Below are positions 20,926 through 22,214 of a stretch of 39,050 nt of DNA, piece after piece (position 1 is the stretch's first letter; each line of letters opens with the position of its first letter). Source of the stretch: an uncultured Bacteroidia bacterium. GTDB lineage: Bacteria > Bacteroidota > Bacteroidia > J057 > CALAJH01. Position numbers and translations under genes: made by a program. The stretch lies in NCBI GenBank assembly GCA_937922655.1, contig CALAJH010000060.1:1-39050 (forward strand), in the 5' to 3' direction. The notes below the pieces were generated by a model. The model was not told where the DNA came from and did no database searches. It saw only the letters and a program-made list of their open reading frames with translations.

Positions 20926-21180
20926 CTAATTTTTCAACGAGTTTTCACGTGCTTGTTGGGAATAATCGGGAAAATCCTTGAAGAATTCCGACAGCGTAAC
21001 GTCGTAATACATGCACAATGCATGAAGGGTCGAGACGGTCAAGTTCGACTTGCCCGCCTCAATGCGCCCGACGTGAATCCCCGTTTCCAAATACACCTCT
21101 TCTTGGGTTGCCCCTCGTTTTTCCCGCCACACCCGAAGACGCATGGCTACGGTCTTCAGGAAATGCTCGTTTTTTCCCAA
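20926..21180 (-). CDS. Small XRE-family HTH repressor
   Basis: The 84-residue protein is little more than one Cro/C1-type helix-turn-helix: RLRVWREKRGATQEEVYLE, then TGIHVGRIEAGKSNLTVSTL, then LHALCMYYDVTLSEFFKDF. The recognition helix lies around residues 33-45. It is divergent from the EGF lipoprotein, and the ~160 bp between them hold two matching palindromes over both promoters, so it is the natural candidate to bind them and repress itself and the lipoprotein (inference). No protease or sensor domain is attached. It resembles C-protein-like controllers of restriction systems in size, but no restriction or methylase gene is present. Confidence 0.87.
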   Translation of the reverse strand: MGKNEHFLKTVAMRLRVWREKRGATQEEVYLETGIHVGRIEAGKSNLTVSTLHALCMYYDVTLSEFFKDFPDYSQQARENSLKN

Positions 21181-21209
21181 CCCCTCTTTTTTGATCTATT
21201 CCGTCGCGG

Positions 21210-21239
21210 CAAAGATGTGGATAATTTTTTTTCGCTCAA
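21210..21239 (-). promoter_or_regulatory. Candidate promoter of the XRE gene
   Basis: On the minus strand TTG (21239-21237) and CATCTTTG (21217-21210) are 19 bp apart; the -7 box has one mismatch to TAnnTTTG. The -33 element lies inside operator 1, which fits autoregulation. Confidence 0.4.
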
Positions 21240-21257
21240 TGACGTAAAAGTCATTGA
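21236..21257. promoter_or_regulatory. Operator 1 (inverted repeat)
   Basis: Perfect 8-bp arms TCAATGAC / GTCATTGA flank the 6-bp spacer GTAAAA. The core AATGAC-N6-GTCATT (21238-21255) is the same as in operator 2, 51 bp away. It covers the -33 elements of both divergent promoters. Confidence 0.75.
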
Positions 21258-21282
21258 CAAAGAAAATCAATTCTTATTTTTG
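21254..21282 (+). promoter_or_regulatory. Promoter of the EGF lipoprotein
   Basis: TTG (21254-21256), 18 bp, then TATTTTTG (21275-21282) match the Bacteroidota pattern in full. Transcription would begin near 21289, at the left edge of operator 2, with a ~50-nt AT-rich leader. Confidence 0.65.
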
Positions 21283-21287
21283 CACTG

Positions 21288-21307
21288 TAATGACATATAT
21301 GTCATTA
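21288..21307. promoter_or_regulatory. Operator 2 (20-bp perfect palindrome)
   Basis: TAATGACATATATGTCATTA is a perfect palindrome with the AATGAC-N6-GTCATT core at 21289-21306. It sits about +1 to +20 of the lipoprotein promoter, a classic repressor position. Confidence 0.78.
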
Positions 21308-21339
21308 TCGAAAAGTAAAAACAACTCATTTATCATATC

Positions 21340-22155
21340 ATGATGAAAAAATTATTGAATTTAGCCGGTGCTTCGATGCTGGCACTGGGTTTAATCCTAA
21401 CTATTGGCGGTTGCAGCAAAGACAAATGCAAAGATATAACTTGCCTCAACGGCGGTTCGTGCATCGACGGAGCCTGCAACTGCGTCAACGGCTATACCGG
21501 CGACCGCTGTCAAACAAGCAAATGTGAAGGAGTAACATGTATGAACGGCGGTTCGTGCATCAACGGAGCCTGCAACTGCGTCAATGGCTATACCGGCGAC
21601 CGCTGTCAAACGGCGCCTGCCCCGCCCGTCGCCTCGTTTACCATCGACAAGACCTCTTGTACCGCGCCCTGTACCTTCAACGTTACCAGCACCGCCACCA
21701 ACGCCACGTCCATAGAGTGGAGCGTGGAAAAAGTAGGCGGCACGGCTTACATCACTATTAGCAACAGAACCGCCCCCAACGCCTCCATAGAATTCGGAAG
21801 CAATCAAGCCGGTACTTATAAAGTCAAACTCAAAGCGACCAATGCCGGCGGGAGTCACACGGCCGAAAAAACCATCAACGTCAATGAGCAGACGAACAAT
21901 CCTCCCTGCCAAATCAATAACACGGCGGAAATTACCATATCCATCACCGGTTCTACCAATCCTTATAAAGTTTATATCAACAACGAGTATAAAGACGACA
22001 TCCAAACTCCGGGTTCCAAAAAGTTCACCTTTACCGCCGGCAACACGTCTTTCAAAGTCGAGCAGCGTTCGGGTTATCTGTTTGAGCCCACCGTTAGACA
22101 AACGTCCGTTTTCGCCGAACCATGCGGAAAATACACATGGAATGTTGAATTGTAA
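21340..22155 (+). CDS. Lipoprotein with two EGF-like modules and a PKD-like domain
   Basis: The 271-residue protein starts with a lipoprotein signal peptide (KKLLNLAGASMLALGLILTIGGC; Cys25 lipidated). Two EGF-like modules follow (C-x4-C-x-N-G-G-S-C-x-x-G-x-C-x-C-x-N-G-Y-T-G-D-R-C), nearly identical to each other. A PKD-like beta-sandwich (SFTIDKTSCTAPCTFNV ... AGTYKVKLKATNAGG) and a ~75-residue C-terminal beta domain (AEITISITGSTNPYKVYINN) complete it. It is predicted to be anchored in the outer membrane and exposed outside. Function is unknown; adhesion or ligand binding is likely. Base composition is visibly more AT-rich than that of its neighbours. An XRE repressor and two operators appear to control it. 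ATG 21340 or 21343 may be the start. Confidence 0.85.
   Translation: MMKKLLNLAGASMLALGLILTIGGCSKDKCKDITCLNGGSCIDGACNCVNGYTGDRCQTSKCEGVTCMNGGSCINGACNCVNGYTGDRCQTAPAPPVASFTIDKTSCTAPCTFNVTSTATNATSIEWSVEKVGGTAYITISNRTAPNASIEFGSNQAGTYKVKLKATNAGGSHTAEKTINVNEQTNNPPCQINNTAEITISITGSTNPYKVYINNEYKDDIQTPGSKKFTFTAGNTSFKVEQRSGYLFEPTVRQTSVFAEPCGKYTWNVEL
21448..21611 (+). repeat. Tandem duplication of an EGF module
   Basis: Two 68-bp copies at 21448-21515 and 21544-21611 differ at only two positions, with an offset of 96 bp (32 codons). The intervening bases differ more. This points to a recent in-frame duplication or gene conversion. Confidence 0.85.
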
Positions 22156-22172
22156 AAACGGACAAAATTCCC

Positions 22173-22214
22173 ATGCGAACGGCAGGCCGAAAAGCCTGCC
22201 GTTCGCATTTCGTT
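22173..22214 (+). terminator. Strong hairpin terminator after the EGF lipoprotein
   Basis: A perfect 15-bp stem (ATGCGAACGGCAGGC and its complement, 22173-22187 and 22194-22208) with a CGAAAA loop is followed by TTCGTTT. It lies 17 bp past the stop and may also serve the convergent gene ending at 22312. Confidence 0.85.

Follow-up and report, generated by a model that had tools for sequence, protein, structure and literature searches.

Sequence comparison places an 84-amino-acid XRE protein, encoded in a 39,050-nucleotide stretch of an uncultured Bacteroidia bacterium (contig CALAJH010000060.1; hereafter the window), in a patchy, Bacteroidota-wide family of regulators of 75–85 amino acids whose genes mostly carry a palindromic site at a conserved position upstream. 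In the reading we favor, and hold to be probable, the protein is a dedicated autoregulator of the kind known from restriction–modification controller (C) proteins and lambda CI, governing its own level and limiting a divergent lipoprotein gene through two operators. Pairing of this regulator with this operator is very likely and regulation of both divergent genes is likely; the choice between activation–repression and plain repression at the regulator's own promoter leans slightly toward the former. The XRE gene (20926–21180, minus strand; TTG start) encodes the family signature TGIHVGRIE, and its product scores 31.9 bits against the HTH_3 profile (curated cut-off 23), which assigns it to the XRE/HTH_3 group. 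The divergent gene (21340–22155, plus strand) encodes a predicted lipoprotein of 271 amino acids with a lipobox (IGGC), two EGF-like modules and a PKD-like domain, and is followed by a 15-bp hairpin (22173–22208, plus strand) that scores as intrinsic-terminator-like. An earlier note on this DNA had suggested that this AT-richer block, closed by the hairpin, may be a transferable cassette. The hairpin is present but is an ordinary terminator, and although the intergenic region has a GC content of 31%, both genes stand at 49–50%, against a window mean of 54% and 51% in a nearby peptidase gene; neither feature supports a cassette, and transferability finds indirect backing instead in the patchy distribution and re-paired cargo of the family. 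The immediate neighbors of the XRE/lipoprotein pair in the window encode a sodium/solute symporter and PolX-like, disulfide oxidoreductase-like and peptidase-like proteins, with no restriction or modification genes among them.

The intergenic region contains two exact copies of AATGAC-N6-GTCATT, 51 bp apart, as the earlier note had reported. Putative operator 1 (21238–21255; AATGACGTAAAAGTCATT, extending to TCAATGAC..GTCATTGA) is centered at about −41/−42 from both predicted start sites, and putative operator 2 (21289–21306; AATGACATATATGTCATT, extending to TAATGAC..GTCATTA) covers approximately +3 to +20 of the predicted lipoprotein transcript. A search of the entire 3.58-Mb genome recovered these two copies only, where the base composition of the window predicts about 0.14 exact matches, and the reversed control pattern gave 0 matches in the same genome. 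When the window was shuffled 100 times, 8 shuffles contained at least three matches at up to two mismatches, as would be expected if the palindromes were accidents of AT-rich intergenic DNA; that explanation is most improbable given that both sites are exact against so low an expectation, and it is contradicted by conservation of the site across the family at one spacing.

The closest XRE homologs share 39–48% identity and come from two other genomes of the class among 60 related genomes searched; at loci L004 and L019 the palindrome again occupies the interval separating the XRE gene from a divergent lipoprotein gene, with lipoproteins that differ from that of the window. Of 395 genomes of the class, 22 were carriers by profile search, and scanning genome contigs with the family alignment recovered 80 loci, nearly all labeled Bacteroidota, where the window protein alone gave no match. 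Viral contigs contained one family locus, phage records none, and plasmids distant matches only. One XRE locus on a contig labeled Polynucleobacter closely resembles a Bacteroidota locus (L077 and L038, respectively), and that contig is probably a contaminant in a metagenome-assembled genome. We defined the subfamily by a T-[GN]-I-[HN]-x-x-R-[IV]-E helix that is shortened by three residues relative to standard XRE proteins, together with GAC-N6-GTC upstream of the regulator's own gene, a definition that includes the window protein. We found no prior description of this regulator family in the literature searched, coverage of which was partial.

We analyzed operator conservation across 108 loci, 87 of them unique, with related loci not independent, such that the counts overstate evolutionary events. 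GAC-N6-GTC occurs 100 times in the 24.7 kb around XRE starts and 40 times in the remaining 526 kb (4.05 versus 0.08 per kb), a 53-fold enrichment upstream of family genes, and GAC-Nx-GTC spacings of 0–5 and 7–12 show no comparable excess in the 108 loci. A sequence-free count of 6-bp inverted repeats likewise peaks at a loop length of 6 (50 of 87 loci versus 8 in shuffles), with smaller peaks at other even loops, as expected from a shared center of symmetry. The palindrome is kept next to the gene in relatives, occupying the usual upstream place in 68 of 87 unique loci and missing from it in about 19. The distance from site to start codon is 50–58 bp in relatives and 75 bp in the window, where the leader is 24 nt longer, no second site lies over the XRE start and the operators are spaced by 51 bp. 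Members of the GIHF subtype commonly have another site 36 bp further downstream that overlaps the start codon region, other two-site loci have spacings of 36–38 bp, some members have a single site, and loci L040 and L103 have a site also near the divergent start. The 51-bp spacing, which the earlier note had described as about five helical turns, is thus a peculiarity of the window locus.

One recognition-helix residue covaries with one operator base. Histidine at this helix position accompanies AATGAC-type half-sites on both sides at 59 loci and on one side at 3, and asparagine accompanies A(C/A)AGAC-type half-sites in 6 of 6 cases. Two further loci, L045 and L035, have N6-spaced palindromes with other half-sites (ACATAC and AATTAC), possibly representing further operator specificities. 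Among six other carriers of an AATGAC-type regulator, five have the exact site once per genome, at the XRE locus, and the remaining one has a second exact site elsewhere. Fourteen genomes without a strong family match contain 0–1 exact sites each, except for one genome of the same order (G002; L148, L155 and L156) with six exact AATGAC-N6-GTCATT sites, in which another regulator may use the same motif. Since the exact site is nearly confined to the XRE locus, the regulator looks local and not global. The core proposal of the earlier note, that the XRE protein binds the palindromes and regulates both genes, is strongly supported, since across the family the site is conserved along with its spacing and position and covaries with the recognition helix.

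To relate the operators to promoters we aligned the loci on the site, which revealed a near-invariant TT at +43/+44; we take this to be where a −7 box of the form AnnTTGY or AnnTTTG ends. This box starts at an offset from the site start of 39 in 31 loci, 40 in 7, 32 in 11 and 31 in 5. In Flavobacterium psychrophilum, TAnnTTTG and the variant TAnnTTGY have been mapped experimentally at −12 to −5 (PMC9723704); the family boxes match these forms, but the first T is usually absent. A −7 box at offset 39 would place the start site at +51 and the operator center near −42, and +51 is also the commonest start-codon position (23 of 68), so that regulator transcripts are predicted to be leaderless or nearly so. 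In the window, the XRE promoter reads as ATTG-N19-CATCTTTG (21240–21210, minus strand), with a predicted −33-type element at 21237–21240 and a predicted −7 box at 21210–21217 whose distance from operator 1 agrees with the family register to within 1 bp. The lipoprotein promoter reads as ATTG-N18-TATTTTTG (21253–21282, plus strand), with a predicted −33-type element at 21253–21256 and a predicted −7 box at 21275–21282 that fully matches TAnnTTTG. Each ATTG element straddles an edge of operator 1, while operator 2 begins at the predicted lipoprotein start, in agreement with the earlier note. We also considered a leaderless lipoprotein promoter reading from operator 2, the start of which is exactly 51 bp from the ATG, and rejected it in favor of the consensus TATTTTTG upstream for want of a −7 box at the family offset. 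Across the family, a perfect TAnnTTTG occurs within 35 nt on the divergent side in 34 of 68 loci versus 2.9 in shuffles, and on the regulator side in 1 locus versus 2.4 in shuffles. Both boxes of the regulator-side promoters are weak, and the −7 boxes on the divergent side keep phase with the operator at approximately 23–24 and 32–35.

These computed features (the sites, their family-wide conservation, fixed geometry, helix–operator covariation and local uniqueness) support a switch in which the XRE protein, presumably as a dimer, would bind AATGAC-N6-GTCATT at two operators. From operator 1, which would sit about 41–42 bp upstream of both predicted starts and over their −33 regions, the protein would set its own level, with low doses probably activating its weak promoter in the manner of C proteins and lambda CI, and by occupying the −33 region and the start site at operator 2 it would limit the lipoprotein; some signal may release the switch. 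An operator near −42 is at the position used by class II activators, by lambda CI at PRM and by C proteins. The likeness to lambda CI at OR/PRM lies in this predicted operator center near −42 of a weak own promoter with a stronger divergent promoter opposite, and the difference in an 84-amino-acid XRE protein of unrelated sequence that has no C-terminal domain and gives no evidence of induction by cleavage. A simpler autorepressor, in line with the earlier note, would have the XRE dimer do no more than exclude RNA polymerase from both promoters, the lipoprotein being switched on by an inducer or when the protein is lost; we rate this as less likely than our reading yet worth keeping in view. 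It fits the overlap of operator 1 with both −33 elements and of operator 2 with the lipoprotein start, as well as the frequency in the GIHF subtype of second sites over the start of the regulator itself. The weak regulator-side promoters and the operator center near −42 in fixed register argue for activation, though they stay compatible with plain repression, and the fixed −7-box register could also be expected if the operator merely overlaps the −33 element, such that activation is suggested by the geometry and not dictated by it. Of the proposed switch that represses both genes, regulation of both is retained, and the geometry fits an activator–repressor like C proteins and lambda CI at least as well as pure repression. 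Phase-like display of the lipoprotein, also suggested earlier, finds no support.

Of the 87 loci, 58 have a divergent gene whose start lies within 300 bp, and 32 of these 58 partners count as exported by a crude rule (predicted lipoprotein or signal peptide) compared to 67 of 284 other ORFs (Fisher p = 5e-6). BLASTP groups the partners into 36 clusters, 22 of which include an exported protein. Pfam analysis of 20 partner representatives detected type IX secretion tails, an outer-membrane barrel, a weak collagen-like stretch and a weak Bor-like match, with most representatives giving no match. Homologous cargo occurs with different regulator subtypes (L024 and L098; L026, L045, L105 and L123; L087 and L094), pointing to exchange of partners. 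Relatives of the EGF-lipoprotein are frequent elsewhere (20 of 198 genomes), and the seven such loci inspected lack both an XRE gene of the regulator family and a matching operator; the regulator is therefore not tied to the EGF-lipoprotein family. This independent occurrence and the wide variation of partners between loci are what would be seen if operator 1 served the XRE gene only and the lipoprotein were controlled independently. We regard that arrangement as improbable in view of the second perfect operator at the lipoprotein start in the window, the phasing of divergent −7 boxes to the operator and the enrichment of exported proteins among divergent partners.

Among solved structures, the nearest relatives of the family are C proteins. 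The model of the 84-amino-acid protein (pLDDT 88.6) has its best fold matches with C.Esp1396I and C.BclI (Z 10.8 for both; rmsd 1.9 and 2.4 Å over 69–72 residues), although other XRE proteins fall within 1–2 Z units of the C proteins and fold ranking alone is weak. A family profile searched against PDB sequences also ranks C.BclI first (1.9e-11), followed by C.Esp1396I (3e-9). The family shares with C.BclI, C.Esp1396I and C.AhdI a small single-domain XRE architecture with similar overall sequence and fold, an inverted-repeat operator with a GAC/GTC core, placement of operators both at the promoter and upstream of it, and a regulator gene that is leaderless or nearly so, as predicted here and as is common for C genes (PMC4824078). 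The C-box consists of inverted repeats with a GACT/AGTC core (PMC5282649); the family operator has the GAC/GTC core in common with it and differs in its AATGAC half-sites and spacer of 6. In C.Esp1396I, R35 and T36 contact bases and Y37 contacts the backbone (PMC4041747), whereas the family recognition helix lacks this tripeptide, which aligns to a three-residue gap in a helix region shortened in 22 of 22 aligned members; we speculate that base reading may have passed to the invariant Arg39. A controller site inside a transcribed region, as operator 2 would be, has a parallel in the elongation roadblock of C.Kpn2I, which is reported to affect its own gene and not, as would be the case here, a divergent lipoprotein gene (PMC6237814). 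The family further differs from C proteins in its partner, which in place of a restriction enzyme is a divergent protein that is usually exported, with a single locus adjoining a C5 methylase. With both the R-T-Y contact residues and the linkage to restriction–modification missing, we classify the family as a variant and not as a C protein, while the system probably works like one.

Recurring across the Bacteroidota beside many unrelated surface proteins, the regulator with its site has the look of a portable switch akin to the ones controlling restriction enzymes. We tentatively extend this to a Bacteroidota-wide, C-protein-like autoregulator clade with a helix shortened by three residues, which might form a portable and possibly bistable switch repeatedly re-paired with unrelated exported proteins to give dose- or history-dependent surface display. 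These data turn a guess at a single locus into a testable regulator family whose operator, spacing, promoter register and one-residue/one-base rule are readable from sequence, link restriction-type controller proteins to surface-protein regulation in Bacteroidota, and offer a source of compact regulator–operator pairs with separable specificities. Several family loci have additional neighbors. At the one relative with a C5 methylase neighbor (L133:5807-11093), the family member leads an operon-like run of the methylase, confirmed by Pfam, a 940-amino-acid ORF that by look is GHKL/MORC-type ATPase-like and a 307-amino-acid ORF that by look is receiver-domain-like, and the run looks like a defense operon. 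SIR2-like, DUF6088/AbiEi-like and IrrE-like genes adjoin family members at L104:3280-4800, L092:3298-3936 and L122:1891-2700, suggesting mobile or defense contexts for some loci. At L034:1946-2167 and L100, divergent ORFs of 73–77 amino acids encode short leader-like peptides (MKKSILNL..EQKNV), and a thioredoxin-reductase-like gene lies on the other side.
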